DNA from: a virus
Virus record (IMG/VR): IMGVR_UViG_3300013128_000484
Coordinates: 1-23,263 of that record
DNA: 23,263 nucleotides
Strand: one strand, 5' to 3'
Position numbers and translations under genes: made by a program. Of this stretch, positions 647 to 21,025 are shown in pieces. How positions within the stretch are numbered: the stretch's first letter is position 1; each line of letters opens with the position of its first letter. The notes beneath the pieces are model-generated. The model ran no database searches. It was given only the letters and a program-made list of their open reading frames with translations, and was not told the origin of the DNA.

Positions 647-2824
647 ATGGCAACGGTTGACGAATCACTATCGCAGGGCGACGCACCGGACATAACACAG
701 CGGCTCATTGACGAGCAAGAGACATACCGCCGCGCCACGCTCGTGGAGAAAGCCGAGAAGCTCCGCCGCCTGGACGAGGAGTTTGCGCTCTGGGATGATC
801 TGCTTACGCTCTCGGACGCCTTTACGTTCGACCGCGAGGACGGCAAACTCACACCCGGGCCGCGGATGCAATTCTACGGCTTTGCAGCGGCCTTCAATAT
901 GGGGCTGATCCGGCCCAGCGCAACCGCTTGCGCATACATCACGCTTCAGCAGTTGCGCATCATCCGGGCCTTCTCTCGCGCCTTCTGCTTGCTCAATCCG
1001 TACTGGTGGGCCATTGAGCACAACCGAAAAACGTATGTCATCGGCGACGGGCACCAGTACGCTTTCGATGCCCAGAAAGGAAAGGTTGTCTCCGATTCGG
1101 AAATCGCCGACGTGGAACGGATTGTCAAGCGGACATGCGACTGGAATGAGTGGCCGCTTTTGCAGGCTGAAATGCAGCGGCGCGCCGACAGGGATGGCGA
1201 GTGGTTCCTCCAGATTGAGACCGACACGAACGAGGAGGGCAAGCGGGTCCTCGATCTGTCGTTCATCGAGCCGCTGTTGGTTTGGGACCCGCCCGAGAAG
1301 AGCGCCGCGCAAGATGTGTGGTTCGGCTGTCAGTTCCGCAAAAACAAATACAAGCGGGCCATCGGTTACTACATTCGTCCCACCGACTATCTTGGCGGCA
1401 CGAACGGAATTGACACGGCGGCGTGGCGACAAATGCACACACGCAAGGAAATCCTCCATCGCAAGTACAACGTGGACATCAGTAGTCCGCGCGGAATCCC
1501 GACGACCTACTCAATCTTCCCGCGATTGGATCAGGGGCTAAAGACGCTCACCTCGATGGGACGGTTGGTGGACTTCCGCGCCAAAATCGGCTTGATCCGC
1601 CGGCACCTGAACGCCACGCTCTCCAGTGTGAATGCCTACCTCGGCCAGAAGCGCGGCGACAATAGCAGCGCCGCCGGCCCGATGCGCAATTTGGAGATGC
1701 TGCCGTATGGGGCGGTCATCGACACGAACGATGCGACGCAGTACGACTTTCCGACGCAGAACTTGGAAGTGGACAAGATGATGTGGGCGGTGCGCGGAGA
1801 GTTGCAGTGTGCTGCGGCGGCCACCGGCCTGCTGGACGCGATGATTAGCGCGGACAACAGCCAGAATAGTTTCGCGAGCGGCATGATTTCCGAGGGCCCG
1901 GTTGACAAGACGATGCGATACCTCCAAGGCGAGGTGAAGCGCAATAGCCACCTGATCCTGGTGCGAGCGATTCAGTTGGCCATTGAAGACGACGAACTGC
2001 CGGGCGACATTCTGGAGCGGTTGAAAATTGAGCACATCGCGCCGTTGGTGATCGCTCGGAATCGGATTCAGGAGGTGCAAGCCGACCAACTATTGGTGCA
2101 ATCCAAGGCCATGTCGCCCCAGACAATGGGCTTGCGTCACAACGTCGATCCCAATGTCGAAATTCCGAAGATCAAGCAACACGAGAAGGACTTTCCGCCT
2201 CTCGACACCAAGGCCGCTGGCGGCCCGGTCGGCAACCGTCAGATGGCTGGACGGCAGAAGGTGACAGCCAGGCCGTTCCGGGCGGACGATGAGCCGGCGC
2301 CGCGAGCACATCCCCAGCGGTCGCAGGAAGGTCTAGAGGAGGCCGCCGATAGCCACTACTCCCAGGATAAGCCGGCTGGGGAAGACTGGGCCATGGTTGC
2401 CAAGATACTGCCCGATGGCTGGGCCGAGAGGACCAAGGGCGAGATCCTCGCGCTGGCTACCGAAAATCTCGCGGCTGCCGAGTACGCACCCGGTGCGCAG
2501 GGCTATTATATGGGCGACGTGGACGGCCAGCAGGTGTGGTCCGTTGACATGACGACATTCCGCGTGCAGTACGGCATCGCTGACATTCTGGTTGCGGGCA
2601 ACAGTGCGCTTTACGACTGGATTCCCGCCGATCGGATCTACGTGGACCGAGACTTCAAGCCGCAAGCCAAAGGTCATTGCATCTACCACGAAGCAATCGA
2701 GGCCCGCCTGATGTCCTTCGGCTGGGCCTACGCCCGAGCGCACCGTATGGCGGGCGCGATGGAACTGGAGTGGCTCTTGGATGACTTGCGTCCCGAACTC
2801 GCGGACCTAAAACCGAAAGAGTAA
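647..2824 (+). CDS. Phage portal protein with C-terminal extra domain
   Basis: This 725-residue protein has the look of a lambda/HK97-type portal. It has an acidic helical N-terminus, a central region with repeated Trp/Tyr-rich strands, the long clip and stem helices, and a crown-like helical part ending near residue 520. Portals of this class are usually 450-600 residues and form the dodecameric DNA channel and tail docking vertex of the capsid. A low-complexity linker rich in Pro, Ala, Arg and Glu (about 520-580) leads to an additional domain (about 580-725). That domain contains a pattern His681-Glu682-x-x-Glu685, then Gly692 and Ala-His699, then Glu706. It resembles a domain I recall from other phage proteins of unknown function, and could be metal-binding. 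The start at 647 lies four bases after the previous stop; its Shine-Dalgarno is weak, suggesting coupling. The portal call is firm on size, composition and position, while the extra domain's role is unknown. Confidence 0.82.
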   Translation: MATVDESLSQGDAPDITQRLIDEQETYRRATLVEKAEKLRRLDEEFALWDDLLTLSDAFTFDREDGKLTPGPRMQFYGFAAAFNMGLIRPSATACAYITLQQLRIIRAFSRAFCLLNPYWWAIEHNRKTYVIGDGHQYAFDAQKGKVVSDSEIADVERIVKRTCDWNEWPLLQAEMQRRADRDGEWFLQIETDTNEEGKRVLDLSFIEPLLVWDPPEKSAAQDVWFGCQFRKNKYKRAIGYYIRPTDYLGGTNGIDTAAWRQMHTRKEILHRKYNVDISSPRGIPTTYSIFPRLDQGLKTLTSMGRLVDFRAKIGLIRRHLNATLSSVNAYLGQKRGDNSSAAGPMRNLEMLPYGAVIDTNDATQYDFPTQNLEVDKMMWAVRGELQCAAAATGLLDAMISADNSQNSFASGMISEGPVDKTMRYLQGEVKRNSHLILVRAIQLAIEDDELPGDILERLKIEHIAPLVIARNRIQEVQADQLLVQSKAMSPQTMGLRHNVDPNVEIPKIKQHEKDFPPLDTKAAGGPVGNRQMAGRQKVTARPFRADDEPAPRAHPQRSQEGLEEAADSHYSQDKPAGEDWAMVAKILPDGWAERTKGEILALATENLAAAEYAPGAQGYYMGDVDGQQVWSVDMTTFRVQYGIADILVAGNSALYDWIPADRIYVDRDFKPQAKGHCIYHEAIEARLMSFGWAYARAHRMAGAMELEWLLDDLRPELADLKPKE

Positions 2825-3856: not shown

Positions 3857-4204
3857 ATGGCGAGTAAACCACCCCCGATCTCAACCGAGATGCACAACGA
3901 GGCCGTACTCACGCGGATCGGCCGCATCGTCTCCGAGGAACACGACCGGCTGGAGCAGGGCAAGGAACATGGCGAGTTGCATGTCGAAGTCCAGTTCGAT
4001 GAGGGACGAGCCGCGCGCACGGGAAAGGTCCACACGATTCGCGAGGTAGATCGGGCGGATATGCAGACGACTCTGCGAGACGAATTCTCCAGGTTGGAGA
4101 AGAACCGCGACTTCGGAGAATTGCACATCACTGTTCAGTTCGACGAAGGGCGATCGTTGCGCACCAGTCGGGTCCACACAATTCGCCACATCAAGATAGC
4201 GTGA
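3857..4204 (+). CDS. Small protein with an internal duplication
   Basis: This encodes 115 residues from the ATG at 3857; AGAGG at 3843-3847 can serve as the ribosome site. It consists of two copies of a roughly 50-residue unit (about residues 13-65 and 69-113). Each copy has a charged helix with a conserved RLE, followed by a strand segment GELHxxVQFDEGR, then RT, a basic residue, and VHTIR. The two copies share the protein pattern although many codons differ at third positions, so the duplication is old and kept under selection for the protein. There is no signal peptide or membrane segment. I do not recognise a family. It lies between the secreted protease and the transketolase genes. Confidence 0.7.
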   Translation: MASKPPPISTEMHNEAVLTRIGRIVSEEHDRLEQGKEHGELHVEVQFDEGRAARTGKVHTIREVDRADMQTTLRDEFSRLEKNRDFGELHITVQFDEGRSLRTSRVHTIRHIKIA

Positions 4205-4210
4205 CGGTCC

Positions 4211-4810
4211 ATGAGAGATATTGCCTTCATTCGCGAACGCATCCTCAACATCAGCCGCCGGCACGGGCTGACGCATCTCGGCTCGTGCATGTCCTGCCTG
4301 CCGATTCTGGTGAACATCTACACCCGCGAGCCGAACGCCGTGGTGATCCTATCCAATGGGCACGCCGGATTGGCGCTTTATTGCGTACTGGAGGAAGTCT
4401 TCGGCCACGACGCCGAGGAATTGCTGGAACGGCACGGCATTCATCCATGCTACGATCCCGAACACCATATTTACTGTTCCACCGGGAGTTTGGGCATGGG
4501 GCTTGCCGTGGCCGCCGGGTACGCGATGGCCGGAAAGCGAGTCCACTGCGTCATCTCGGATGGGGAGTGCGCGGAGGGCATCGTCTGGGAAGTGCTGGCC
4601 TTCCTGGGCGATCACCCGAGCCTTCCGATCCTGGTCCACGTCAACGCCAACGGCTGGAGCGCCTATCGGCGAGTGGATCTTCCGCTCTTGCGGCGACGGC
4701 TGGCGGCCTTCGCTTCAGTGGATTTGCGCGAGACGACTAACGCCCCGCTCCCTGACAACCTTTCCGCCCACTACATGAAGCTATGCGACGAACCTTCGCC
4801 CGCATCCTGA
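4211..4810 (+). CDS. Transketolase, N-terminal (diphosphate-binding) subunit
   Basis: This encodes 199 residues matching the PP domain of thiamine-diphosphate transketolases. Visible landmarks are THLGS at 21-25 (the conserved His near the active site), SNGHAGLALY around His51, GSLGMGLAVAAGYAMAGK at 92-109, and the ThDP/Mg motif SDGE at 116-119 followed by Asn145 and Asn147. Stand-alone bacterial N-subunits are usually about 270 residues, so this is a compact form. It overlaps the C-subunit gene by 28 bases, and the two products must associate because ThDP binds between PP and Pyr domains. Transketolases move a two-carbon ketol unit between sugars. In a glycan locus such pairs can make unusual or branched-chain sugars, which is my inference here. 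The ribosome site is weak, and the start follows the previous stop by six bases. Confidence 0.86.
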   Translation: MRDIAFIRERILNISRRHGLTHLGSCMSCLPILVNIYTREPNAVVILSNGHAGLALYCVLEEVFGHDAEELLERHGIHPCYDPEHHIYCSTGSLGMGLAVAAGYAMAGKRVHCVISDGECAEGIVWEVLAFLGDHPSLPILVHVNANGWSAYRRVDLPLLRRRLAAFASVDLRETTNAPLPDNLSAHYMKLCDEPSPAS

Positions 4811-5259
4811 TCCAACAGATGACCGAGCGGCCCGAGATGCACGCGCTCGTCGGCGACGTGGGTTATGGGATGTTCGATGCCATTGCCCATCGCTACCCAG
4901 AGCGGTTCTGGAATGTTGGGGCCGCCGAGCAGGCGATGGTCGGCATGGGCGTCGGGTTGGCTCTGGCCGGAAAGTTGCCGATCTGCTACACGATCACGCC
5001 GTTCCTGTTGCTCCGTCCCTTCGAGTTGATCCGCAATTATCTGAACAACGACAAGGTGCCCGTGGTGCTGGTGGGCTCAGGACGGGACAAGGACTACAAC
5101 CACGATGGGCCGACGCACTGGTGCGAAGAGGACCGGGCGCTCTTGGCCCTATTGCCGAATATCCACGCGTGGTGGCCTGCGAATGCACACGAATTGCAGG
5201 AATGCCTTCCCGTGGTGCTGGAAGACCGGAACCCGCTTTACATCAACCTCAAGAGGTAA
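4783..5259 (+). CDS. Transketolase, pyrimidine-binding subunit (third domain absent)
   Basis: This encodes 158 residues corresponding to the Pyr domain of transketolase. The catalytic Glu49 that activates ThDP lies in NVGAAEQAMVGMGVGLA, and the DGPTHW stretch (108-113) matches the conserved substrate/cofactor loop. Family C-subunits are usually about 300 residues because they carry a third C-terminal domain. Here the protein stops at the end of Pyr with a clean stop at 5257-5259, so that domain is missing rather than frameshifted. The start overlaps the N-subunit end by 28 bases, which points to coupled translation. Together the two genes encode a minimal PP plus Pyr enzyme. Reaction and substrate are inferred from family membership only. 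Confidence 0.85.
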   Translation: MRRTFARILIQQMTERPEMHALVGDVGYGMFDAIAHRYPERFWNVGAAEQAMVGMGVGLALAGKLPICYTITPFLLLRPFELIRNYLNNDKVPVVLVGSGRDKDYNHDGPTHWCEEDRALLALLPNIHAWWPANAHELQECLPVVLEDRNPLYINLKR

Positions 5260-5279
5260 CGGAATGTGAGGAAATCGCT

Positions 5280-5972
5280 GTGATCTTGAAACGCAGAGAC
5301 GGCACCGAATTGACCCTTGACGACTATCCAGCGCTGTCGCAGCACCTTGCCGATCCGGCATGCCACGTCGCCGACATCGTGGACCAGATCAACGGCGGGA
5401 TCTACGAGGGAGTGCCGATTTGCGGGAGGGTCATGGACATGGGGGCGAACTGCGGCCTATTCTCGGCCTACGCCAGTCCGTCGTGCGACCGCATTTGGGC
5501 GTTTGAGCCGTCGCGCAGGCATTTCACCGCCGCAGAGCAATTCTTCCGCGAGGCACGGATCGAGAACGTCTCGCTCGTCCATGCCGCCCTCTGGGTCAAG
5601 GATGGGCCAATCGGCTTCATGCACGATCCGAGCAACGCGACGATGGACCGCATCGACTACCACCGAAACGCGCACACGCCCGTTCAGGTGCCGTGCCTGC
5701 GCATGGACACGTTGTTGTCGCGCTACGTCATCGACCATGCCGACTTTGTGAAGATGGACATCGAGGGCGCGGAGGAGGACGTGTTGGCCAGCGAGGGATT
5801 CGCGGCGGCGGCTCCGAAGATCGGGTTCCTCTGGGTCGAATGCCACAACTATCGCGATTGGGGGGATGGCAAGTTGCTCGGCGACCGCGTGGAGGCCCTC
5901 GTCCGCAATCACTTCCCCCACGTCGAGCGGAGAACGCAAGACCTCGTGATCGGCAGGAGGGTGATGGCATGA
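5280..5972 (+). CDS. FkbM-family SAM methyltransferase
   Basis: This encodes 230 residues from a GTG at 5280, chosen because GAGGA lies seven bases upstream; the longer frame to 5121 would run through the transketolase gene. The Rossmann-type methyltransferase motifs are clear: DMGANCG at 53-59 (motif I), FEPS at 75-78, and FVKMDIEGAE at 156-165, the signature of the FkbM family. FkbM enzymes usually O-methylate sugars or polyketides. Its stop overlaps the start of the sugar epimerase gene (ATGA), so the two are coupled and likely act on the same glycan. It could methylate either a free nucleotide sugar or a glycan end. Confidence 0.88.
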   Translation: MILKRRDGTELTLDDYPALSQHLADPACHVADIVDQINGGIYEGVPICGRVMDMGANCGLFSAYASPSCDRIWAFEPSRRHFTAAEQFFREARIENVSLVHAALWVKDGPIGFMHDPSNATMDRIDYHRNAHTPVQVPCLRMDTLLSRYVIDHADFVKMDIEGAEEDVLASEGFAAAAPKIGFLWVECHNYRDWGDGKLLGDRVEALVRNHFPHVERRTQDLVIGRRVMA

Positions 5973-6775
5973 GAATTCTCGTGACAGGTTCAAGCGGATT
6001 CATCGGTCGGACAGTGGTTCGCCGCCTCCAAGAGCAGGGCAAGCACGAAACCTACTGCCTCGACCGACAGAACATCCCGGCAGCGGCCGAGTGGAAGCCC
6101 GAGGCAGTGATCCACTGCGCCTGGGGTGGAGTGTCACACGAGTTCCGCGATGATGATGCCCTCCAGTCTGGCGGGCTTTTGTTGACCCAGACGGTTGCCT
6201 GCGCAGTAGCCGGCACGTGTCGGCGGTTCGTGGGAATCGGGAGCCAAGCCGAATTAAGCCAGCCGGAGATTCCCTACTCGCAATATAAGGCACTCACCAA
6301 TCGCTATCTCCAGCGGTTTTGCAAGGAACGGAATATCTCCTGGGCCTGGGCGCGGCTCTACTCGGTCTACGGCCCCGGCGACAACCCGCAGACCTTCATC
6401 CCCTATTTGATTCGCGCCCTGTTGCGCGGCGATACGGAGATTCCACTCACCGACCAGAACATTCCCTGGGACTGGCTCTACGTCGATGATGCCGCCGATG
6501 CCTTGATTCGCCTAGCCGAAGTGAATATCAATGGCGAGTTCGAGCTGGGCTATGGGGCCAGCGTGTTGACACAAGACACGGCGAGGGCCATACGCGACAA
6601 GATCAATCCGGAGGCCAAATTACTGTTCGGGCTGCGCCCCAAACGAGTCAAGGAGATTCCGGGGTTGATGTGCGACATTGAAGCCATCCAGCGCGCGACC
6701 GGCTGGTGGCCGCAAGTTCCGATCAGCAAAGGACTGGACCGAACCATCGCGTGGTACAGGCAGCACATCCGATGA
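5969..6775 (+). CDS. NAD-dependent sugar epimerase/dehydratase (extended SDR)
   Basis: This encodes 268 residues. The NAD-binding glycine motif GSSGFIG is at 7-13 and the catalytic pair of Tyr103 and Lys107 (YSQYK) is intact. A further family-typical segment, RLYSVYGPGDNPQTFIP, follows. The order fits extended short-chain dehydrogenases acting on nucleotide sugars. The length is short for the family (often about 310 residues) but both the cofactor and substrate-binding halves seem present. The ATG overlaps the FkbM stop. It probably epimerises or reduces an NDP-sugar intermediate in the same pathway as the transketolase pair. The exact sugar cannot be read from the sequence. Confidence 0.88.
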   Translation: MRILVTGSSGFIGRTVVRRLQEQGKHETYCLDRQNIPAAAEWKPEAVIHCAWGGVSHEFRDDDALQSGGLLLTQTVACAVAGTCRRFVGIGSQAELSQPEIPYSQYKALTNRYLQRFCKERNISWAWARLYSVYGPGDNPQTFIPYLIRALLRGDTEIPLTDQNIPWDWLYVDDAADALIRLAEVNINGEFELGYGASVLTQDTARAIRDKINPEAKLLFGLRPKRVKEIPGLMCDIEAIQRATGWWPQVPISKGLDRTIAWYRQHIR

Positions 6776-7563
6776 AACCCGTCTGTGACTGCATCAGCGA
6801 CCTGCACATGGGCGACGGTGGGCCACGAGACAACTTCGCCTACGGTAGTCGGGCATGTGAGTTCAACGCATTCCTGGATGCAGTGGAGGCGCAGGGAACC
6901 ACGCTCGTTATCTGCGGCGATCTGTTCGAGTTCTGGCAGGCGAATCTCAGCGCTGTCATCACGTACCGTAAACCGCTGCTTGATAGGCTGGCGAGGCTGG
7001 GGGCTATCTATATCCCCGGCAACCACGACGCGGACCTATCGTATTTCATCGGGCGCAAGTGGCTAACGCACCCGTTCTTCCGGACGATGCGGCTGTGCCA
7101 CACGATCACGGTCGCGTACCGCACATTCCATTTTTACCACGGGCACGAGGAAGACCCGTACTGCTGCACCGACAGACCGGGAATTGGGCGCATCTCCGCT
7201 ATCTATGCGGGATTGAAAGAAGACCGGAACGGCGGGCCGATGCTCGACAAGCACAAGACAGTGGAAGACATGACAGTTGGACGTATCGAGCGGTGCATGA
7301 GCGCGGTGCGGAAATTGTTTGGACTACCCGGCCGAGTGGAAACCCTGAACGCCCGCTGGCTGAGGCGTGTGCCGCAAGATGATGCCATTGTGTTCGGCCA
7401 CACGCATAGCCCAGGGCAAAAAGACGGCAAACTGTTCAACTGCGGCTCTTGGGCCGAGACGCGAAACGGTTTCGTGCGAATCTATGACGATGGCTCGGTC
7501 CATGTCATGGATTGGATTAACTGCCAAGCCGTGCCAAATGAAACAGAATTGAGGGCACCGTGA
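6772..7563 (+). CDS. LpxH-like calcineurin-type metallophosphoesterase
   Basis: This encodes 263 residues, with the ATG at 6772 overlapping the preceding stop (ATGA). The five metal-binding blocks are in order: SDLH (Asp10, His12), GDLFEFW (Asp50), GNHD (83-86), HGHEED around His123-125, and GHTH near residue 217. The GDLFEFW and GNHD pattern is close to UDP-2,3-diacylglucosamine pyrophosphatase (LpxH), which removes UMP from a lipid A precursor. In this context it may instead cleave a sugar-nucleotide or polyprenyl-diphosphate intermediate; this is inference. It is unlike the second phosphoesterase at 14406-15509, which belongs to a different phage-type group. Confidence 0.84.
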   Translation: MKPVCDCISDLHMGDGGPRDNFAYGSRACEFNAFLDAVEAQGTTLVICGDLFEFWQANLSAVITYRKPLLDRLARLGAIYIPGNHDADLSYFIGRKWLTHPFFRTMRLCHTITVAYRTFHFYHGHEEDPYCCTDRPGIGRISAIYAGLKEDRNGGPMLDKHKTVEDMTVGRIERCMSAVRKLFGLPGRVETLNARWLRRVPQDDAIVFGHTHSPGQKDGKLFNCGSWAETRNGFVRIYDDGSVHVMDWINCQAVPNETELRAP

Positions 7564-8285
7564 GATTCATAACCTGTTCCAACCGCCCGCTCGATGACTA
7601 CTCCGATTGCAACATTCGGAGACAGCCGAGAATGCTGAACGAATCGTGCAGATACTTCGGAGTTCCCATCGAAAACATCTGCCCACTCCGCGCCAAGCAC
7701 GACTGGACCGGGGGCGAGCGACGCAAACTCGTGCTGGCCTACCTGGAGCACACCCCAGACGATGAGCCGGTGACTTTGATCGACGCATGGGACAGCTTCG
7801 TGGCCGGTACGCCGCAAGAGATAGAGACGGCCTTCCGCGAGATCGGCTATCCCGTGGTGATTTCCCCGGAGTGCAACCTGTGGCCACCCGAAATCGCCAA
7901 GTACGTCCAGCATCCGCCGGCCCCGACGCGGTGGAGATATGCCTGTGGCGGCGGTTGGGCAGGGTTTGCCGGCGCACTTCGCGAGATGTTCACCGCGCCC
8001 GACTTCTGGCCAGCGTGGGCCATCTGCGATCAAGCGGCCTTTGACCATTGGGTTTGCACACACCCAGATATGGCCACCGTGGATCACCACTGTCGGCTGT
8101 TCGTTTGCGGTTACGACGATGGCAAGGCCGACCCGCCCATCTGGAGCGTGCTGAAGCTCAAGGGCGGGCGACCGTACAACGCCGACACCGACACCTATCC
8201 GCTGGTCTGGCACGGAGGCGGCGGATTCGCCATGCAAACACTGGCCCTTTGGGACAAAACCAAGGAGATCCGCGGATGGAAATAG
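7560..8285 (+). CDS. PLOD-type (collagen-lysyl) glycosyltransferase-like protein
   Basis: This encodes 241 residues from a GTG at 7560 that overlaps the previous stop, with GAGGG five bases upstream. The arrangement resembles the glycosyltransferase domain of PLOD/procollagen galactosyl- and glucosyltransferase proteins. A DAWDSF motif (Asp75, Asp78) fits the metal-binding DxxD position, GYPVVISPECNLWP (97-110) matches the family's VVFSAE and CWP region, and WRYACGGGWAGFAGAL (125-140) matches its YLNSGGFIG segment. A DQAAFD-like acidic stretch follows. Viral members of this family glucosylate hydroxylysines in collagen-like proteins. No collagen repeat is present in this window. The donor and acceptor are unknown. 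Confidence 0.72.
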   Translation: MRFITCSNRPLDDYSDCNIRRQPRMLNESCRYFGVPIENICPLRAKHDWTGGERRKLVLAYLEHTPDDEPVTLIDAWDSFVAGTPQEIETAFREIGYPVVISPECNLWPPEIAKYVQHPPAPTRWRYACGGGWAGFAGALREMFTAPDFWPAWAICDQAAFDHWVCTHPDMATVDHHCRLFVCGYDDGKADPPIWSVLKLKGGRPYNADTDTYPLVWHGGGGFAMQTLALWDKTKEIRGWK

Positions 8286-8887
8286 CCGACTGCTTGCAGT
8301 GGTATCCGATCAATCCCGGCCTGAGTAGCCGCGTTGTTCTCAGCAACCTGCTACGCCGCCTGCACGCCGTCCTGAAAGCAGGCGTCCCCGGCGATGTGGT
8401 GGAGATGGGTTGCCACGCTGGAGAAACGTCGGTCTTCTTCGCACGAATGATTCAGGAGATGGACCCGGTACGCGCGCTGCACTTGTACGATTCCTTCGAG
8501 GGCCTGCCGGCAAAACACGCCAAGGATAACCCAAACTACGGCGAGCCAGGGAGCGTCAAGACCAGCCACGACTCAGTGGTCGATCGTTTCACTCGTCATG
8601 GCCTGCCGCAACCGCAGATCCATGCCGGCTGGTTCAGCGCGGTGCCAGAGGAAGAGTTCCCTGAGCGCGTGGCCTTCGCCTTCTTCGATGGGGACTTCTA
8701 CCAGTCGATCTGGGACTCCTTCACGCGCATCTACCACCGTCTGTCGCCGGGCGCGATCGTTTGCGTCCATGATTACGCGGTGAGCAACTGGCCCGGAACC
8801 GAGGCCGCCTGCGAGGACTTCCTCCAAGACAAATCCGAGCGCATGGAGCACGTCTGCTTCCTGCTGGGGGTGATGGTGAAGCGATGA
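8276..8887 (+). CDS. TylF-family SAM O-methyltransferase
   Basis: This encodes 203 residues from the ATG at 8276, which overlaps the upstream gene by ten bases. SAM-binding motif I is DVVEMGCHAGETS (40-52). The family-typical YDSFEGLP block follows at 71-78, and the metal-binding acidic stretch is in FFDGDFYQS, then HDY near residue 160. TylF/MycF enzymes are metal-dependent and O-methylate sugar hydroxyls; related proteins occur widely in glycan clusters. The stop overlaps the next start (ATGA). This is the second methyltransferase in the block and of a different family from FkbM, so the glycan may carry two distinct methyl groups. Confidence 0.87.
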   Translation: MEIADCLQWYPINPGLSSRVVLSNLLRRLHAVLKAGVPGDVVEMGCHAGETSVFFARMIQEMDPVRALHLYDSFEGLPAKHAKDNPNYGEPGSVKTSHDSVVDRFTRHGLPQPQIHAGWFSAVPEEEFPERVAFAFFDGDFYQSIWDSFTRIYHRLSPGAIVCVHDYAVSNWPGTEAACEDFLQDKSERMEHVCFLLGVMVKR

Positions 8888-9570
8888 TCGTAGACATAGT
8901 GTTGCTGACGTTTCCGAACCACCCGAAGCGCCTCGAATACTTGGGGCACACTTGGGACTGCCTTCAGAAGTATATGGTGGCCTCGGGGGACACCATTCGC
9001 TATCTCTGCGTCTCCGAGTCGGAGCGCGACCCGGCCTGCCCGTGGTGCGGCGATGAGTTGGAACAGTTCTGCCATGAGCGTGACATCCCGCTGACCTGGC
9101 TGTCTGGTCCAGCATCGCTCGGCCATGGGATGAATGGAGCGATGCGCACTGCGCAGTCGGCAATCTTCGGACTGCATCAGGACGACTACGAGTTAAAGCA
9201 CCCGCTGGACCTATCCCCAGGCATCCGGATGATGGAACGTCACGCTGAGGTGGACTTGATCCGCTATGGCTATCCTCCTCCCGAGTTCAAGTGGCGGCAT
9301 CTTGACTACAAGGACGGGTGGAAGCGATTCGACCTGACGGCGCATTGGCCGTATGGGGACGAGCCACGCCTCCAACGCAAAACCTTCCCGACCAAGTTCG
9401 GCTGGTACACAGAGAACAATGGGCACGCCTCCGAGGGCACCATGCTGTGGACGCTGGTTCGCCGCAACGCCGTGATCCTGGCCGCCGACAAGCGATACTA
9501 CGACCACTACGGCACCGTCTCGGCAGTGCCAGCCAACAAGGAAATGATGGGCCGAATATCCCAACGCTAG
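8884..9570 (+). CDS. Glycosyltransferase, GT-A (family 2-like)
   Basis: This encodes 228 residues. The N-terminus VLLTFPNHPKRLEYL (6-20) resembles the first strand and nucleotide loop of family 2 glycosyltransferases. The SLGHGMNGAM (78-87) block leads to QDDYEL (99-104), the probable DxD-type metal site. A CPWC pair at 52-55 is unusual and may bind metal or be chance. The C-terminal half contains a Trp/Tyr-rich part and GYPPPEFKWR. It is shorter than many family 2 enzymes. The start shares the ATGA overlap with the methyltransferase. Donor and acceptor are unknown; its position suggests it extends the same glycan as its neighbours. Confidence 0.7.
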   Translation: MIVDIVLLTFPNHPKRLEYLGHTWDCLQKYMVASGDTIRYLCVSESERDPACPWCGDELEQFCHERDIPLTWLSGPASLGHGMNGAMRTAQSAIFGLHQDDYELKHPLDLSPGIRMMERHAEVDLIRYGYPPPEFKWRHLDYKDGWKRFDLTAHWPYGDEPRLQRKTFPTKFGWYTENNGHASEGTMLWTLVRRNAVILAADKRYYDHYGTVSAVPANKEMMGRISQR

Positions 9571-9581
9571 GAGCCGAAACC

Positions 9582-10208
9582 TTGTCTTTTATCGACATCG
9601 CCCGCAAGTTCGCCTTCATCCATGTCTCAAAGACCAGTTCGGTCATTGAGTGGACGTGGCGTGCGGCTTGCGGCGTCAGGATCGCGGTTGACGAAAGTCG
9701 GCTCTTTCGGGGCGGTCTGTGGCTTGGCGGTGCGCACGACTGCGCGCGAGACACGCGGCGGTTGCAGCCGGAATTGTGGGCACAGTCCTTCAAGGTGGGC
9801 TTCGTCCGCAATCCTTGGGCGTGGTGGGTGAGCGCCTACTTCTGGTACAACCCTCCCAGACACACCGGCTTTGACTTCCTCGCGCGGTATCCGACCTTCC
9901 GTGAATTCCTGCTGCGCTGGAAGGAGTGGCGGCTGAAGTTCCCCTGGGACGGATACACCGGCTTCCTGTGCGACGACGATGGGAAAATCATGGTGGATTA
10001 TGTCGGTCGCTCGGAGCGATTGCAACAGGACTTCGACATGATCTGCGATCGGGTCGGCTTCCCCAAGACGACGCTTCCCCGCAAGACCGACCGCCGCAAC
10101 TATCGTGAGTTCTACGACGGCGATGACCTGAAGCGGATCGTCTACCACCTGAGTGGCCGGGATATCGACCTGTTCGGCTATACCTTCGACGATGGAGGGG
10201 ATTGCTGA
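9582..10208 (+). CDS. Sulfotransferase family protein
   Basis: This encodes 208 residues. I chose the TTG at 9582 because a GGAG lies at 9570-9573 and the preceding gene stops at 9570; no ATG fits without overlapping that gene at length. Typical PAPS-binding features are present: AFIHVSKTSS (11-20) as the 5'-phosphosulfate loop with Lys17, and KVGFVRNPWAWWVSAYF (71-87) as the 3'-phosphate site with Arg76 and Ser84. The loop lacks the usual glycine after KT, so activity is likely but not certain. The C-terminal GYTFDDGGDC stretch is short. The stop overlaps the next start. The pair of adjacent sulfotransferases argues for a sulfated glycan, with PAPS from the host. Confidence 0.74.
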   Translation: MSFIDIARKFAFIHVSKTSSVIEWTWRAACGVRIAVDESRLFRGGLWLGGAHDCARDTRRLQPELWAQSFKVGFVRNPWAWWVSAYFWYNPPRHTGFDFLARYPTFREFLLRWKEWRLKFPWDGYTGFLCDDDGKIMVDYVGRSERLQQDFDMICDRVGFPKTTLPRKTDRRNYREFYDGDDLKRIVYHLSGRDIDLFGYTFDDGGDC

Positions 10209-10843
10209 TGCAACTCCTTGTCATCCCCGATCATCGACAACAGTGGGCCTATCTTCCGCTTCCCAAGTGCGGATGTTCCTCGGTCAAGCGGGCCATCGAG
10301 CGGCACTTCGGCCTGGAGCCGACCGAGCAGATCCACGCAAGGGGGTGGGAAGATGCCCCGCCGCTGTCCGAGGGCTCGCAATTCATGCGGACTACCACTT
10401 ACTTTCGCTGGACGGTGGTTCGCCATCCTCTTTCGCGACTGATTTCGACATGGGCCGAGAAATGCTATGCCTTCCCGGCCGATCAGGCGCACCTGTTGGG
10501 CCCGGACCTGCGGGCGGTCTACGGAAAATCGTTCACTGAGTTCGTCGCGCACGTTCTGACGCTGGACGTGAACAGCGAGGCCACCGATTCGCATATCCGG
10601 ACACAAGCGTCCTTTCTGGTCGAGAACGGGGAATTGCTGGTGGACAAGATGCTGCGGCTGGAGTCCATCGGCACGGAATGGCCGAAGATGCAGGCGTTGT
10701 ACGGCCTTCCGGACCTACCCTGGGAGAACACATCGCCTACTGAGCTGCGTGAGCAAGCCTTGGTCGAGTTGACGGACGAGATGCGCGCGATGCTGGTGGA
10801 TCACTACAAGGCGAGCTACGAACTGCTGGGGTATGAGCCATGA
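10208..10843 (+). CDS. Carbohydrate sulfotransferase (sulfotransferase family 2-like)
   Basis: This encodes 211 residues from the ATG at 10208 (a TGATG overlap with the preceding stop; the in-frame TTG six bases earlier is less likely). The 5'-phosphosulfate loop PKCGCSSVKRAI (19-30) and the 3'-phosphate block WTVVRHPLSRLIST (68-81) match Golgi-type carbohydrate sulfotransferases, where PKxxST and RxPxxRxxS are the key features. It differs strongly from the upstream sulfotransferase, so the two probably act on different positions. The 3' end overlaps the ParB-like gene (ATGA). Sulfation of the glycan is inferred from the family; the acceptor is unknown. Confidence 0.85.
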   Translation: MQLLVIPDHRQQWAYLPLPKCGCSSVKRAIERHFGLEPTEQIHARGWEDAPPLSEGSQFMRTTTYFRWTVVRHPLSRLISTWAEKCYAFPADQAHLLGPDLRAVYGKSFTEFVAHVLTLDVNSEATDSHIRTQASFLVENGELLVDKMLRLESIGTEWPKMQALYGLPDLPWENTSPTELREQALVELTDEMRAMLVDHYKASYELLGYEP

Positions 10844-11750: not shown

Positions 11751-12533
11751 ATGAGCCTTCGCATGATCTGGTGTACGGCCACCTATGGCCGCCCACACTT
11801 ACTGCCCCGCGTGATCTACTCATTCACGCACCAAACCTACCAGAATCGCCACCTCATCATCGTCGATGACGGAGGCCAGTATGGCAACCAGACCGGAGAC
11901 AAGTGGGAACTCATCAGCCTGCGCGAGCGCTTTCCGAGCCTCGGCGCGAAACGGAACTTTATCGCCCGCCTCGCCGCTGAACGCGGGGCCGATGCCGTTA
12001 TGCCGGTCGATGATGACGACATTCCCTTGGCATGGCACACCGAAGCCAGCGCCGCCGCTCTGGAGAAGGCGGAGTGGAGCCGCCCCAGCCAGATCCTTTC
12101 AAACTGCTACCACGGACACCGGCTGGAAGACGGGATCTTCCGCGCAAACTACACTGGCCACAAGAGCGACCAGACGAAGGAAAGGATGTACCATCCTTGC
12201 TGGGCGATCAAACTGAACGCTTTCGAGCGCGTCGGTGGCTACCCGGCAGAGAAAAGCGGGAATGAGGATCAGGGCCTCATGTGGGCACTCGAAGCCGCCA
12301 CAGTGACGCAAGTCGATTATATCGATGACTGCGGATTTCAACCGAGCTATATCTATACGTGGGGCGCGGCTGGCAACATCAGCGGTTTCCTTCGTGTCGG
12401 CGATCCCGCCGGCGCCGATGCCTGGAAGAAGACTAGGCGGGAGTTGAAACCCGCCCGTATCATCCCGTGGATTCCCTCATTCAACTGGAAGTCTCCGGTA
12501 ATTCTGTCCGGCGTCCTTCCGCGTCCCTTTTAA
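11751..12533 (+). CDS. Glycosyltransferase family 2
   Basis: This encodes 260 residues, three bases after the ParB-like stop. The start at 11751 follows AAGGGGAGCG. It carries the usual GT2 features: IWCTATYGRP at 6-14, SFTHQTYQNRHLIIVDDGG (24-42) with the VDDG nucleotide site, and MPVDDDD at 84-90 as the DxD metal site. Later EDQGLMWAL resembles the catalytic ED segment of the family. The C-terminus has a WIPSFNWKSP tail. It has a full GT-A domain and no membrane segments, so it is likely a soluble transferase. The sugar donor and acceptor are unknown. Confidence 0.86.
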   Translation: MSLRMIWCTATYGRPHLLPRVIYSFTHQTYQNRHLIIVDDGGQYGNQTGDKWELISLRERFPSLGAKRNFIARLAAERGADAVMPVDDDDIPLAWHTEASAAALEKAEWSRPSQILSNCYHGHRLEDGIFRANYTGHKSDQTKERMYHPCWAIKLNAFERVGGYPAEKSGNEDQGLMWALEAATVTQVDYIDDCGFQPSYIYTWGAAGNISGFLRVGDPAGADAWKKTRRELKPARIIPWIPSFNWKSPVILSGVLPRPF

Positions 12534-15943: not shown

Positions 15944-16283
15944 TTCAGGACACCGGCAAGAGTTCGCCACGGGAGCCGTTCGCGACACTGCGGAAGGGAA
16001 ACCGCGTCCGGATCTTGTGAGCCCGTTTGCCATGCGTCGGTTGGGAGCATGGCTGGAGCAAGGCGCCGCCAAGTATTCGGAGCACAATTGGGAACGGGGA
16101 ATCCCCATCGCCCGGTGCCTAGCGTCGCTATACCGCCACCTGCTCGCCTACCAAGCAGGAGACAGTGACGAGGATCACGCTGCCGCGATCATGTGTAACG
16201 CGATGTTTATTATCCACATGGAAGAGATGATTAACCGGGGCGTGCTCCCAGCCGACCTCGATGATCGGCCAAGATATACATGA
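15936..16283 (+). CDS. DUF5664-type dATP/dGTP diphosphohydrolase-like (MazG-related)
   Basis: This encodes 115 residues, matching the DUF5664 family: EFATGAVRDTAEGKPRPDL (9-27), then KYSEHNWERGIP about 46-57 and RHLLAY about 67-72, with a conserved DEDH segment. This all-alpha family is related to MazG-type pyrophosphohydrolases and includes phage enzymes that hydrolyse dATP or dGTP to monophosphates. Some relatives supply precursors for 2-aminoadenine genomes, but the needed PurZ synthase is not in this window. It overlaps its upstream neighbour by eight bases and its downstream one by four (ATGA). Confidence 0.82.
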   Translation: MDDSGHRQEFATGAVRDTAEGKPRPDLVSPFAMRRLGAWLEQGAAKYSEHNWERGIPIARCLASLYRHLLAYQAGDSDEDHAAAIMCNAMFIIHMEEMINRGVLPADLDDRPRYT

Positions 16284-17131
16284 GAACGATCCGCCTGCTA
16301 CGGGCTGTGAACGAACCAGGAAACAGAGGTCCCGCGCGCGGCCAGTTCGCCCTCCAGCGTGCCCTCCGCCAAGTCAAGCCCGAATGGCTGGAAATCGGTG
16401 GCCAGTTGCAATTTGGCGAAATCCCATGGGCATGGTCATACGAGGATGCGGCCATAGTGGTTAAGTTCGCGGAATGGGGATTTCCGTTCTGCGTGGGCCC
16501 CAACTTCCTCTTTCACAGTAGCCGCGAGCCAGGACGGATGCCGCACGAGCAGATCGTATTGGATGCCCCAAGCTGCGAACTGCTCTTCACCGAATCCGAC
16601 TGGTATGCCGAGTTGATCCAGCAGCATTGTCTGCGCAACAAGGCGCCAATTGCCATATTTAGCTACCCCATCGACCCCCAGCCGGAGGGGCCCCTGGAGG
16701 CCAAGCGCGACCTGCTGATCTATCTCAAGAAGCCGGACTTCGTGCCGCAGATCCGGGCGGTCCAGAACGGGCCATGGGAACGCAGCGTTATCATCACTTA
16801 CGGATGCTATGAGCGTGACGCTATGATTCTAGCGGCCAGACATTCACGAGCCTGCCTGTACCTCTCGGATGACGACAGGGGCCCCTTGGCCCTAGCGGAA
16901 ATCATGTTGGCGGGCTGTCCGGCCATCGGCGTTCCCCGAGGCGCGCCCTGGATCGTGAATGGCGTATCCGGAATCAAGCTGGAACGCTGGGAACGGATAA
17001 ACGGGGCTGTCAAACGCGCCATCGGGATCAATCGGCAGAAAGTGCGCGCTTGGGCACTAGAGCGCTTTGCCACCACCCGTTCTGTGGGGATCGTTTTGGC
17101 CGCCTTGGAGGCGGTCGCCAAGCGATATTGA
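16280..17131 (+). CDS. Glycosyltransferase, GT-B fold (family 4-like)
   Basis: This encodes 283 residues. The C-terminal donor-binding half is recognisable: SRACLYLSDDDRGPLALAEIMLAGCPAIGV (spanning about 195-223) contains the E-x7-E-type segment of GT-B enzymes. It is followed by PRGAPWIVNGVSG. The N-terminal acceptor half is short for GT4 enzymes (about 370 residues usual), so it is reduced. The ATG overlaps the DUF5664 stop. It is the last gene before the intergenic gap, so it closes the 23-gene block. Confidence 0.78.
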   Translation: MRTIRLLRAVNEPGNRGPARGQFALQRALRQVKPEWLEIGGQLQFGEIPWAWSYEDAAIVVKFAEWGFPFCVGPNFLFHSSREPGRMPHEQIVLDAPSCELLFTESDWYAELIQQHCLRNKAPIAIFSYPIDPQPEGPLEAKRDLLIYLKKPDFVPQIRAVQNGPWERSVIITYGCYERDAMILAARHSRACLYLSDDDRGPLALAEIMLAGCPAIGVPRGAPWIVNGVSGIKLERWERINGAVKRAIGINRQKVRAWALERFATTRSVGIVLAALEAVAKRY

Positions 17132-17182: not shown

Positions 17183-17232
17183 GAATGCTAAGCGTTTAGA
17201 CAGAGCATGGTTGGGTATTCAGGTGTTGTCCT

Positions 17233-17268
17233 GAGGCCCGCCTTTCCCTCACGGGGAAGGCGAGCCTC
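17233..17268 (+). terminator. Terminator-like hairpin
   Basis: The two arms (17233-17248 and 17253-17268) pair over 16 positions with one C-A mismatch and one G-T pair, closing on a four-base loop (TCAC). The stem is GC-rich and is followed by TTGTGTTTCTT, a T-rich but interrupted tail, so intrinsic termination is plausible though not textbook. It sits between the last glycosyltransferase and the protease gene. Confidence 0.6.
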
Positions 17269-17302
17269 TTGTGTTTCTTGGGACGTTTTGGGAGGCAAGG
17301 CC

Positions 17303-18841
17303 ATGCCGTGGTCGGCCAGTGACGCGGACAAACATTCGGCAAAAGCAGACACTCCAGACAAACGCAAGCAATGGGCCAAAGTTGCCAACGCGGCGCGCAA
17401 GCAAGCCCTAGAAGAGGGGAAGTCCGAAGAGGAGGCTGATGCCTACGCCATCAAAGCCGCAAACGCGGCGATGAGCAAGACCAAGGAAGACATCGAACTT
17501 TCCACTGCAACCATTACCGAGTACGCCAGCAGCGCCGGCCTCACCCTTAAGGTGGACCGCGAGAACCACATCATTCACGGCGTCAAGATCCTCGGCCTCC
17601 AGTCGAAAAATCGCGGCGACAAGGCCAACGATTATCCGCCCAAGACGCTCATCGAGGCGGCGCCGAAGTATGAGAACGCCCCGGTCTTCGTCGACCACGC
17701 CCCAGAAGGCGCCAATCGGTCCTACAAGGACCGCAACGGCGTACTGAAGAACGTCACGGTCCGCGAGGATGGGCTGTACGCGGACCACTTCTACAATCCC
17801 GCGCATCCCATAACGGAACAGTATCTTTTCGACGCCGAGAACGCTCCGCAGAATTGCGGCTTCTCGCACGAAGCGGACGGAAAGCGCCGCTATGATCCGA
17901 CGACCAAGCGATACATCGTTGAAGAAATCATCGCGGTCCACTCGGTCGATCTCGTCGCCCGTCCCGCCACCGCGTCCGGACTTTTTGAGTCGGAGAATCC
18001 CGATGACACTTCAGGCGATATTCCGCGCGATCCTCTTCTGGAAACGTCCTTCTGCGCTCTCGACCTCGCCCGCACCATCCTCGAAGACGAGAAAGCCAAC
18101 ACCGAAGAAAAGAAAACCCGCCTCGCCGAAGCGCTCGCCACTTGGCGGCGGGAACTGATCGAAGGCGAAATCTCCGACAAGATCGCCGCCGATGCGAACG
18201 TCAAGGCCATGCAGAAGATCAACTATGCGGCCGATGACATGATCTCGCAGGCACTCTACGACGGCGACAAGTATCCTACCGTGGCGGACAAGAAAGCCCG
18301 CATCCTCTCCGTGCTGGCGGATTGGGAGAGTGAAATGAGCAAGCTGCCTTCCGCCGGCACCACTTCCAAACAGGAGTCGCAAGACATGGAGATCAAGGAT
18401 CTCACCACCGAAATGCTCCAAAAGGAACGGCCCGACCTCGTGGAGCAGCTCACCGGAAACGACGAGATGAGCAAGCTCAAGGCGACTGTTCTGACTTTGC
18501 AGTCCGAGAACTCGCAGATCAAGGAGTCGCTCGACGCCTATCGTGCCAAGGAGGCCGAGGCCAAGAAGGAAGCCGATATCGCCGCCGAGCTGAAGGAAGC
18601 CCACTTCGACGTGGCCAACAAGAAGATCGTCAGCGAGTCCTTCATGCAGCAATTGCGCGCCGCATCCGACACTGCCGCACGCAAGGCGCTCATCCTCGAC
18701 CGCAAAGTGCTCATTTCCGAGCAGCAGCAGGACAAGTCCGCGCCCAGCGCACCGCCGTTCGCTCCCGTCAGCGATCCGCAACACGAGCGCGATGCCCGGC
18801 CCGCCGGCAACATCCGCGAAGCCCTTCACAGTTGGCAGTAA
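17303..18841 (+). CDS. Prohead protease fused to scaffold protein
   Basis: This encodes 512 residues from the ATG at 17303, preceded by GGGAGG at seven bases; longer frames would run through the hairpin. Domains in order: a small helical N-terminal part (about 1-57, with WAKVANAARKQALEEG), then an S78-type prohead protease (about 85-230), with catalytic His132 in VFVDH and Ser188 in CGFSHE, and a typical VHSVDLVARPATA block (212-224). A helical linker follows (about 240-345). The C-terminus (362-512) is a scaffold with a long coiled coil about 389-436 rich in Lys, Glu and Ala. Such fusions cleave themselves and the capsid protein during head maturation. A likely internal start at 18386 could yield the scaffold alone. 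Confidence 0.83.
   Translation: MPWSASDADKHSAKADTPDKRKQWAKVANAARKQALEEGKSEEEADAYAIKAANAAMSKTKEDIELSTATITEYASSAGLTLKVDRENHIIHGVKILGLQSKNRGDKANDYPPKTLIEAAPKYENAPVFVDHAPEGANRSYKDRNGVLKNVTVREDGLYADHFYNPAHPITEQYLFDAENAPQNCGFSHEADGKRRYDPTTKRYIVEEIIAVHSVDLVARPATASGLFESENPDDTSGDIPRDPLLETSFCALDLARTILEDEKANTEEKKTRLAEALATWRRELIEGEISDKIAADANVKAMQKINYAADDMISQALYDGDKYPTVADKKARILSVLADWESEMSKLPSAGTTSKQESQDMEIKDLTTEMLQKERPDLVEQLTGNDEMSKLKATVLTLQSENSQIKESLDAYRAKEAEAKKEADIAAELKEAHFDVANKKIVSESFMQQLRAASDTAARKALILDRKVLISEQQQDKSAPSAPPFAPVSDPQHERDARPAGNIREALHSWQ
18386..18841 (+). other. Possible internal start for a stand-alone scaffold
   Basis: An in-frame ATG at 18386 follows AGGAG (18372-18376) by nine bases, inside the protease gene. 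It would give a 151-residue protein starting MEIKDLTTEML, exactly at the boundary between linker and scaffold. Lambda makes Nu3 from within gene C in this way. Another in-frame ATG at 18335 with GGGAG (18324-18328) is less well placed relative to the domain boundary. Confidence 0.45.
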
Positions 18842-18883
18842 TCGGCCAACTTCACCAAGCCACACTCATACGGAGTCAAAACA

Positions 18884-19474
18884 ATGACCTCGCGATTCCG
18901 CTATCGTTCCGGGGACACGAACGACATTTTCGTTCCCTACGATGCAGACCACCCCATCGAGGAAGGCGATCTCGTGTTCCTCGACCCGACACTCGGCTAT
19001 GCCCGCACGGCAACCGACATGACCAACCAGGGCGACGACGCCCTCAATCAACTGGCCTTCGCGGAGTACTTCGCGGGCGTGGCCATGCAGAAGGCGGGAC
19101 TCCAGTCCAACGAGAAGTCCTTCCGTCTCGTCACCGACCCGAATCCGCCCTGCATCCGCTTGGCCACTAGCGGGCTCTTCGAGTTCAATTGCGCCGCCGG
19201 CATGGGCGACACGATGGCCGAGGGCGATCTAGTCGGCATCTACGCCACGGGGTCCGGCATCTCGGACAGCCAGAAGGTCATGGCCGCCCAGACTGACGGC
19301 GCGCTGACCCGCTCGCGCGCCATCGGTTTCCTGCGCAAGCAGCCGGCCACCTATGGCCAATCCTCCCCGAACGAAACCCGATGTTTCGTTGAGGTGGATG
19401 CCAGCCTCGCGCGCGGTGGAGTCGGAACCGTCTCCTCGGTCGCCGGGACCTACACGAATGCCTCGGGCCAGTAA
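18884..19474 (+). CDS. Probable head decoration protein
   Basis: This encodes 196 residues from the ATG at 18884 after CGGAG. It lies between protease/scaffold and capsid genes, the usual place for head decoration or stabilising proteins. The protein is rich in Asp, Gly, Thr and short strands (for example DDIxVPYDADHPIEEGDLVFL-like and GDLVGIYATGSGIS segments), consistent with a beta-barrel surface protein. It has no signal peptide, coiled coil or catalytic motif. I do not identify a family with confidence; function comes from position and composition. Confidence 0.6.
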   Translation: MTSRFRYRSGDTNDIFVPYDADHPIEEGDLVFLDPTLGYARTATDMTNQGDDALNQLAFAEYFAGVAMQKAGLQSNEKSFRLVTDPNPPCIRLATSGLFEFNCAAGMGDTMAEGDLVGIYATGSGISDSQKVMAAQTDGALTRSRAIGFLRKQPATYGQSSPNETRCFVEVDASLARGGVGTVSSVAGTYTNASGQ

Positions 19475-19510
19475 TGGCCCGCACCACGAACCACAAGGAG
19501 ACGCCATACC

Positions 19511-21025
19511 ATGGCACGTTACCAAGCCCGAAAGCTCTACCGCGACCTCATGGCGGAAACCCGCGACACCGGGTTCCCGATTCGCAACGAGGAAGACCTC
19601 AAGAACACGCGCACCTTCGCCGCCATTCGCGAAGCGTGCGGCATCGAGCGCGACGGTCGCCCGATGCGCGAGTGCTGGGGTGCCGACCTGGAGCACCGCA
19701 CGCTGAAGGAAGGCTGGGAGAAGAACACCGACGAGTTGACCATTCCGGTGCGGCGCCGCACCGAAACCGATCTGGCCGACTGGTCGATCCGCGACCTGTG
19801 GGAGAACCTCGTGATCTCCCGCAATGGCGACCCCGTGGGCCGCGAAGGGGTGCGCTACTTCTGCGACCCCGATGACCCGCAGGCCGGCAAGCGCATGTAT
19901 GAGGCCGCCGTGGGCGGCGCCGTCGATTCATCGCTGTTCTACGGCATCACAGGCCAGTTGCTCATCGCGAGCATCCTCAAGTCCTTCATCCGCGAGTCGA
20001 ACGTCATTACCAACCTGTGCGGAACCTATCCGACCAACATGACGCATGGCGAACGCATCCCCGGAATGGGTCTGCCCGCCGATCCCGACTCCAACCACGT
20101 CGAAGACGTGACTCTCGTGCCCGAGAACGGCGAGATCAAGTACGTCGGGTTTTCGGAAGAGTACATCGAGTTGCCCGACACCCAGTACCGGGCGCTTGGC
20201 ATCGGCGTCACGCGGAAGGCGGTCTACGAAGACCGCACTGGCCTGATTCTCCAGCGCGCCGCCGACGTGGGAACGATCCTCGGCCTCCGCAAGGAGAAGC
20301 GGCTGATCGGCGCCGTCATCGGCGGCACGATCAACCCCGTCCGCTTCCGCGAGAAACGGGCGTTCGACAACGAGTGCATCACGCTGGATATGTACCAGCA
20401 GGCCAGCGCCGGCAGCGGCACCTACCAGTTGGCCTACACCTACAGCACCCGGCCCTACCCGTGGGTCAACGACATTCCCAGCAATCCGCTGGACGACTGG
20501 AAGGCGTTCCGCACCGCCGATCAGTACTTCTCCAAGATCGTCGACCCGAACACGGGCGAACCCATCGAAATCGGGCGGCCGTTCGTGCTGCTTCCCTACA
20601 CTCGCCGCTGGGACCTGATCCAGATTGCCCAAGCGCTCAACATCTTCAAACTGACGCAAGGCGTCGGTCAGAGTGGAGCGTGGTCGCCAGGCAACGTGCT
20701 GACCCAGACGCCGACCAGCGCGCTGGCCGGTCTGATGGCCCAGCAGTTCGCCACCAGCCGCCAGTTGCGCAAGCAACTGATCGAGCAGTTGAGCGTCAGC
20801 GAAGCCGATGCCGACCACGTCTGGTTCAACGGCGACTTCGGCGAAGCGGTCAAGTACAGCGAGAACTGGCCGTTGCAAGTCGTGCAGGCTCCGCCGATGA
20901 GCGAGGCCGAGTTCAGCCGCGACATCATCGCGCGCTTCAAGGCGTTCGAGCGCGGCCAAGCCGCCATTTGGAATCCTCGCATGGTACAGAGGCACAACTA
21001 CCTGAGTTGCTCCTCTGGCCAATAA
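19511..21025 (+). CDS. Major capsid protein (HK97-like)
   Basis: This encodes 504 residues from the ATG at 19511, with AAGGAG at 19495-19500. The size, the acidic and Arg-rich N-terminal helix, and the position immediately downstream of protease and decoration genes fit the HK97-fold major capsid protein. Features include a GITGQLLIASILKSF helix near residue 150 and long beta-rich segments through the middle. HK97-type capsid proteins are typically 300-400 residues, so this one is long and may carry an added surface domain. The N-terminal part may be a cleaved delta domain, but the cleavage site is not determined here. Confidence 0.85.
   Translation: MARYQARKLYRDLMAETRDTGFPIRNEEDLKNTRTFAAIREACGIERDGRPMRECWGADLEHRTLKEGWEKNTDELTIPVRRRTETDLADWSIRDLWENLVISRNGDPVGREGVRYFCDPDDPQAGKRMYEAAVGGAVDSSLFYGITGQLLIASILKSFIRESNVITNLCGTYPTNMTHGERIPGMGLPADPDSNHVEDVTLVPENGEIKYVGFSEEYIELPDTQYRALGIGVTRKAVYEDRTGLILQRAADVGTILGLRKEKRLIGAVIGGTINPVRFREKRAFDNECITLDMYQQASAGSGTYQLAYTYSTRPYPWVNDIPSNPLDDWKAFRTADQYFSKIVDPNTGEPIEIGRPFVLLPYTRRWDLIQIAQALNIFKLTQGVGQSGAWSPGNVLTQTPTSALAGLMAQQFATSRQLRKQLIEQLSVSEADADHVWFNGDFGEAVKYSENWPLQVVQAPPMSEAEFSRDIIARFKAFERGQAAIWNPRMVQRHNYLSCSSGQ

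Follow-up and report, generated by a model that had tools for sequence, protein, structure and literature searches.

What does a phage gain from a transketolase that is encoded among methyltransferases, sulfotransferases, and glycosyltransferases (GTs)? The question is raised by a run of genes at positions 4211–10843 of the IMG/VR virus record IMGVR_UViG_3300013128_000484, which was analyzed in its entirety (23,263 bp; hereafter the window) and is probably a phage genome fragment. A first-pass annotation of this DNA had listed a split transketolase, an NAD sugar enzyme, two methyltransferases, two sulfotransferases and two GTs in one coupled run, and had suggested that a complex sugar decorates virion proteins, the host surface or DNA. 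All of these genes are present and intact, and the run is unbroken, with gaps between neighbors of −28 to +20 nt; the list had overlooked a metallophosphoesterase (6772..7563; PF00149). Intact sugar-active families do not line up in this way by chance. Our preferred reading, held with evenly balanced confidence, is that the run is a late phage module for glycan synthesis and decoration, expressed along with the virion genes, and that it would make a C2-extended or branched sugar and attach it to a virion protein. A sugar-building and decorating pathway as such is well supported by the intact families, the tight coupling, the recurrence of a miniature transketolase with a sugar dehydrogenase (and at times an FkbM methyltransferase) in unrelated phage contigs, and a related phage contig (L038) that retains GTs at the same place, between its portal and its capsid genes. 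From these data we infer how the sugar is branched and that the virion is the acceptor.

The transketolase is split into two halves, as first annotated, yet it is also a miniature that lacks the third (Transketolase_C) domain. Its N subunit, tktN (4211..4810; 199 aa), corresponds to the thiamine diphosphate (ThDP) pyrophosphate domain, and matches PF13292 just over the cut-off (22.4 bits), PF00456 just under it (19.9 bits), and the NCBIfam transketolase model at 5e-17, under the cut-off of that model. It is 36–44% identical to its relatives, has a ThDP motif of the DG...N type (SDGE...VNANG), and keeps H22, H51, H78, D117-G118, N145, and N147 in common with the mini-transketolase contig L002. 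The C subunit, tktC (4783..5259; 158 aa), consists of the pyrimidine-binding domain alone (PF02779, 1e-23) and stops at residue 158, where the third domain would start. It is 41–54% identical to 14 relatives, every one of the same short type; C-subunit frames span 157–184 aa in all mini relatives vs. 308–311 aa in the full forms. Among 15 aligned sequences E49 and H112 are invariant and D108 is nearly so. Judged from sequence, the enzyme is a miniature two-piece transketolase with ThDP-binding and catalytic residues retained. The nearest solved structure to tktC (1e-22) is the split transketolase of Carboxydothermus hydrogenoformans (PDB 6yaj/6yak), which likewise carries its N and C halves on separate chains; those chains have 309 and 341 aa, compared with 199 and 158 aa in the phage form without the third domain. 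At the place of one classical transketolase His (in the TH of 6yaj), the 15 aligned mini forms have Gly with an invariant Arg after it; this exchange suggests a different pocket and perhaps another substrate.

A two-sequence profile scanned against viral contigs and bacterial genomes places the mini-transketolase in 13 IMG/VR contigs besides the window and in several genomes of the candidate phyla radiation (CPR), a group of tiny uncultured bacteria. The mini forms constitute a single group against the full-length ones (clade support 100/100), within which CPR sequences are not set apart from those of phages. Across 380 surveyed CPR-phylum genomes, three encode the mini form (>240 bits, frames of ~171 aa) and seven encode full-length forms (<140 bits, frames of at least 309 aa). 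One CPR genome holds both a mini form and a full-length split transketolase; thus, equating the mini form with the housekeeping enzyme would be too simple. The CPR mini-transketolases are located among GTs. The full-length split transketolases of CPR genomes (L031–L037) tend to adjoin genes for short-chain dehydrogenases/reductases (SDRs), some of them with aminotransferase-like or GDP-mannose-dehydratase-like genes recognized by eye, and transketolases in nucleotide-sugar clusters may be common among CPR bacteria.

The neighbors of the mini-transketolase were counted over 18 loci, the window included; L027 was left out (no continuous frame of the pair was recovered), and L013 and L014, which look like one virus, were counted as one. 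An SDR lies at most one gene from the transketolase pair in 14 of these loci, and none of the 18 has a matching SDR more than 3 kb from the pair. The SDR profile was built partly from the neighboring SDRs themselves, and their position is independent of this. FkbM adjoins the pair in the window and in six other loci (7/18). An additional SDR was identified by eye in L012, and genes for a GDP-mannose-4,6-dehydratase-like protein and an SDR lie 3′ of the mini-transketolase in L010 and L011. In L013 and L014 (IMG/VR 3300025322_000736 and 3300002460_001159), GmhA-, HddA-, and nucleotidyltransferase (HddC-like) genes stand upstream of SDR-tktN-tktC, probably as a phage-encoded GDP-heptose pathway close to terminase-like genes. 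The contexts in L010/L011 and L014 point to the class of sugar that may be involved. Directly upstream of its mini-transketolase trio, L002 encodes (at 6755–9286) a protein of 843 aa in which SPSASxSPS is repeated at length; mucin-like in composition, it is a candidate glycan acceptor.

The heptose genes of L013/L014 give substance to an alternative, unlikely in our estimate, in which the mini-transketolase would just supply sedoheptulose-7-phosphate for GDP- or ADP-heptose, which the phage would then methylate, sulfate, and attach without any branching. These genes lie directly upstream of SDR-tktN-tktC, and the metallophosphoesterase of the window could replace the heptose bisphosphatase. 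However, GmhA, HddA, and HddC homologs adjoin the mini-transketolase only in L013/L014, and none was recognized in the window. Furthermore, a CPR genome keeps the mini form despite its full-length split transketolase, and the Gly-Arg exchange suggests a pocket other than the classical one.

The remaining genes of the run fit the modification of a sugar. The NAD sugar enzyme first proposed is an NAD(P)-dependent extended SDR (5969..6775; PF01370, 1e-25) of the class acting on sugars or nucleotide sugars, with its GSSGFIG, GSxxE, and YxxxK motifs retained. It is followed by the LpxH-like metallophosphoesterase (1e-8 to its family), which also matches UDP-2,3-diacylglucosamine diphosphatase weakly (7e-7, under the cut-off) and is possibly a sugar-phosphate or nucleotide-sugar hydrolase. 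The two methyltransferases are indeed of different families: an FkbM-family S-adenosylmethionine-dependent enzyme (5280..5972; PF05050, Methyltransf_21, 1.5e-11; 45.2 bits vs. a cut-off of 22.7) and a TylF-family (macrocin) O-methyltransferase (8276..8887; PF05711, 3.2e-25; 89.3 bits vs. a cut-off of 23). The two sulfotransferases, said to be different, are divergent, although they belong to the same Pfam family (PF03567) and not to separate ones: ST1 (9582..10208; 8e-8) and ST2 (10208..10843; 6e-17) score 33.1 and 63.1 bits with Sulfotransfer_2 vs. a cut-off of 22, and ST1 also matches the galactose-3-O-sulfotransferase group phrog_3347 (6e-13). Motifs for 3′-phosphoadenosine-5′-phosphosulfate (PAPS) were recognized by eye in both, as HVSKTSS and VRNPWAWWVSAY in ST1 and as LPKCGCSS and VRHPLSRLIST in ST2. 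No sulfotransferase matching ST1 or ST2 (blastp, 1e-3) occurs in the other mini-transketolase loci examined. Start codons were chosen by Shine–Dalgarno fit, namely GTG at 5280 for FkbM, TTG at 9582 for ST1, and ATG at 10208 for ST2.

Four GTs accompany these enzymes, two within the run and two downstream of it, in agreement with the first annotation. GT_PLOD (7560..8285; PF25342, 1.3e-8; 34.8 bits vs. a cut-off of 27) is a stand-alone PLOD-type GT of 241 aa, with no fusion to a 2-oxoglutarate (2OG)-Fe(II) lysyl hydroxylase domain; its homologs occur in cyanophages, some annotated as 2OG-Fe(II) oxygenases. GT1 (8884..9570) has no family match and shares 45% identity with its counterpart in the phage contig L041 and 29–30% with that in L038. 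Its QDD motif is kept in the three phages, and the best fold matches of its model are the GT2-family enzymes GtrB and ArnC (E 7e-4; predicted local distance difference test, pLDDT, 54), which together support its assignment as a putative GT-A-type GT. GT2 (11751..12533; PF00535, 5e-6, over the cut-off) is 51% identical in L038 and 36% in L041. GT3 (16280..17131) likewise lacks a family match, is conserved at 54% in L038 and 48% in L041, and is predicted to be GT-B-like by a low-confidence model with a UDP-bound glucosyltransferase as the best fold match (E 1.4e-4; pLDDT 57). A PDB sequence search was uninformative for GT1 and GT3. Both GT2 and GT3 are backbone genes of this phage group.

The families and positions of these genes suggest the following steps. 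A nucleotide sugar, made by the host or by the products of phage genes beyond the fragment, would acquire a keto group; tktN and tktC would then transfer, with ThDP, a two-carbon ketol unit to this keto intermediate of the nucleotide-linked sugar. The neighboring SDR would either make the keto group, or reduce or epimerize the product, to give a C2-extended or branched sugar. This sugar may be O-methylated by FkbM and TylF, and sulfate added by the two sulfotransferases. GT_PLOD, GT1, GT2, and GT3 would assemble the glycan on an acceptor, for which a virion protein is the likeliest candidate. A bolder version, in which the mini-transketolase and SDR form a new enzyme family, common to phages and CPR bacteria, that ketol-branches nucleotide sugars, and in which the phage uses it to cover its virions with a glycan that is branched, methylated, and sulfated, is offered tentatively.

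Where the glycan is placed is addressed by the surroundings of the run. The cassette sits between portal and capsid genes, and promoter- and terminator-like sites in the run are not above shuffled expectation. GC content at third codon positions is similar in the run (0.71–0.84) and in the structural genes (0.72–0.86). The coupling extends past the cassette, gapless, through a ParB gene (10840–11748) into GT2. The one true relative found is L038, which shares with the window the portal (50%), GT1 (30%), GT2 (51%), GT3 (54%), and capsid-side genes (52–59%). Its order is portal-g05-GT2-GT1-GT2-GT3-capsid genes without the sugar block: an additional GT2 takes the place of the genes from tktN to TylF, and sulfotransferase, ParB, and protease block are all absent from its portal–capsid interval. 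L041, with a different backbone, has GT2-methyltransferase-GT1-GT3. Because both keep the three GTs without the sugar-building block, GT1, GT2, and GT3 appear to be a conserved core, and the sugar-building and sulfation/tailoring blocks exchangeable inserts, as expected of a surface trait selected by receptors, defense, or grazing.

The same gene sets might instead remodel the host surface, through lysogenic conversion or masking of receptors, rather than the virion, and similar sets do occur in bacterial surface-polysaccharide loci, and the CPR mini-transketolases have GTs around them; we regard this, too, as improbable, on a par with the heptose route. Virion decoration is favored because the genes lie within the structural region and have no promoter of their own above chance, and because no membrane-anchored transferase, flippase, or polymerase, nor a ligase, is recognizable in the run; moreover, the GTs hold the same portal-to-capsid place in L038. 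No convincing membrane helix was found in any cassette protein.

Decoration of the phage DNA, as hypermodified bases, is rated far lower. In its favor, GT2 weakly matches TET-associated GTs (PF20691, E 0.012) and a hydroxymethylcytosine (HMC) glucosyltransferase PHROG (0.078), both under the cut-off, and a gene at 15936 encodes a dATP/dGTP diphosphohydrolase domain. GT2, however, scores better as an ordinary PF00535 enzyme and accompanies two other GTs near capsid genes, and neither a base hydroxymethylase nor a TET-type enzyme was recognized in the incomplete window or in the examined parts of L038 and L039, with a non-exhaustive annotation of the window and of these relatives. The complex-sugar decoration first suggested is upheld in part, as a sugar module in a phage, by families, coupling, and recurrence; its DNA acceptor finds little support, and preference for the virion over the host surface comes by inference. 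Least probable is that the transketolase serves host metabolism as an auxiliary metabolic gene, stimulating the pentose phosphate pathway without any connection to the glycan genes, as automatic annotation would read the transketolase homology: the enzyme lacks the third domain, falls in a distinct clade, and is coupled to SDR/FkbM in unrelated phages, with no further pentose phosphate gene in the run.

Several observations weigh against virion decoration with a branched sugar. The SDR of the window is just 20–27% identical to the SDRs adjoining other mini-transketolases, L002 and L030 carry the mini-transketolase without an adjacent SDR, and the L014 context suits heptose synthesis as well as branching. 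Nucleotidyltransferase, dehydratase, and PAPS-making genes were not recognized in the fragment; hence, supply by the host must be assumed. The window has no evident Ser/Thr-rich acceptor, the assignments of GT1 and GT3 depend on low-confidence models from three-sequence alignments, and L038 is a single close phage relative.

All genes of the window discussed here lie on the + strand, in the order portal, trypsin-like protease, small conserved protein, cassette, ParB, and GT2, followed by a ClpP-type head maturation protease, an exonuclease-like protein, nucleotide enzymes, GT3, and the capsid-side genes. The portal protein (647..2824; phrog_21, 3.6e-24) and the small phage protein g05 (3890..4204; 47% over 36 aa in L038, where its counterpart likewise stands between portal and GTs) flank the cassette upstream. 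Downstream, three consecutive capsid-side genes (17207..21025) share 52, 59, and 55% identity with the same three genes of L038; they have no PHROG match, and the third may be the major capsid protein, by gene order and size. The ParB-like protein (PF02195, 1e-8; phrog_4715, 9e-15) overlaps ST2 by 4 nt. Portal and capsid queries alone retrieved no relatives from viral contigs, a capsid alignment search retrieved the record of L038 only, and no bacterial or prophage relative of the phage was found. No structured RNA or tRNA was found in the window.

The trypsin-like protease (2920–3831), between portal and cassette, has a signal-peptide-like start; a defense role was considered and rejected, as PADLOC gave just one weak match (LmuA), from this protease domain. 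At 2–337, an open-ended frame with its start outside the window encodes a Cys/Glu-rich CxxxC repeat of period 4 (TCQETCSETCGEDCEEKC...), and the DNA has weak tandem repeats of 12 and 24 bp. At 15506–16283, a DUF1937 protein adjoins the N-terminal dATP/dGTP diphosphohydrolase domain (PF18909). The domain is associated with phages whose purines are modified (Z-genomes); PurZ was not seen in the fragment.

Phage glycosylation is known mostly as GTs acting on ordinary sugars. Phage GT cassettes, and cassettes with which large phages synthesize sugars, are kinds already known; we found no description of the mini split transketolase family or of its pairing with SDR/FkbM in phages and CPR bacteria, nor of a phage set that joins a mini-transketolase, two sulfotransferases, and two methyltransferase families, and the family and the gene set look new. 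The earlier statement that no described phage has this set holds for the GenBank phage collection and the literature searched, in which nothing relevant on phage transketolases of this kind or on this gene set was found. In that collection ST2 and GT1 have no match and ST1 has weak matches only. The transketolase matches that were opened there (MT835711, MT835679, MT836054, and CAKLQH020000010) are bacterial chromosome DNA, as read from their dnaX/recR-like, dxs, and metH/pitA neighbors. A phage module in which a sugar is not only attached but also synthesized, methylated, and sulfated would show how the virion surface can be varied. As a candidate for sugar branching of the transketolase type, the mini-transketolase/SDR pair is compact and assayable. 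The case also cautions against taking any transketolase on a viral contig for a pentose phosphate auxiliary metabolic gene.

Among known systems, the huge-phage sugar cassettes (LR756500; L007) combine one sulfotransferase with GT-, methyltransferase-, and sugar-acid-synthesis-like genes (named by eye), and differ from the present run in having no transketolase, a single sulfotransferase, and another sugar. In mycobacteriophages, phage-encoded GTs are thought to glycosylate the capsid protein (PMC11256854). The window and L038 resemble such virion-glycosylation systems, as far as genes alone can tell, in encoding three GTs among structural genes; the mycobacteriophage systems are described there with GTs only and no such set for sugar synthesis, methylation, and sulfation. 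For the branching step, yersiniose-type sugars and paulomycose offer known or proposed precedents, in which a ThDP-dependent addition precedes ketoreduction (PMC4753412; PMC12247030). In the YerE, AviB1-AviB2, and Pau11-Pau12 systems (yersiniose, eurekanate, and paulomycose), a keto sugar receives its C2 branch from a ThDP enzyme, after which a ketoreductase may act; the likeness here, seen at the level of genes, is a ThDP enzyme encoded beside a sugar oxidoreductase (14/18 loci). Those enzymes, however, belong to the decarboxylase or alpha-keto acid dehydrogenase families and use pyruvate, and are not transketolases. Transketolase-type branching has been proposed for Streptomyces antibiotics and never shown in vitro: the split-gene transketolases of the miharamycin and amipurimycin clusters are thought, without proof, to place a hydroxyacetyl branch on keto sugars (PMC12247030). 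Those enzymes, likened here by description and not by sequence, have never been assayed and have been reported from Streptomycetes alone and for small-molecule antibiotics, whereas the form described here is miniature and occurs in phages and CPR bacteria.

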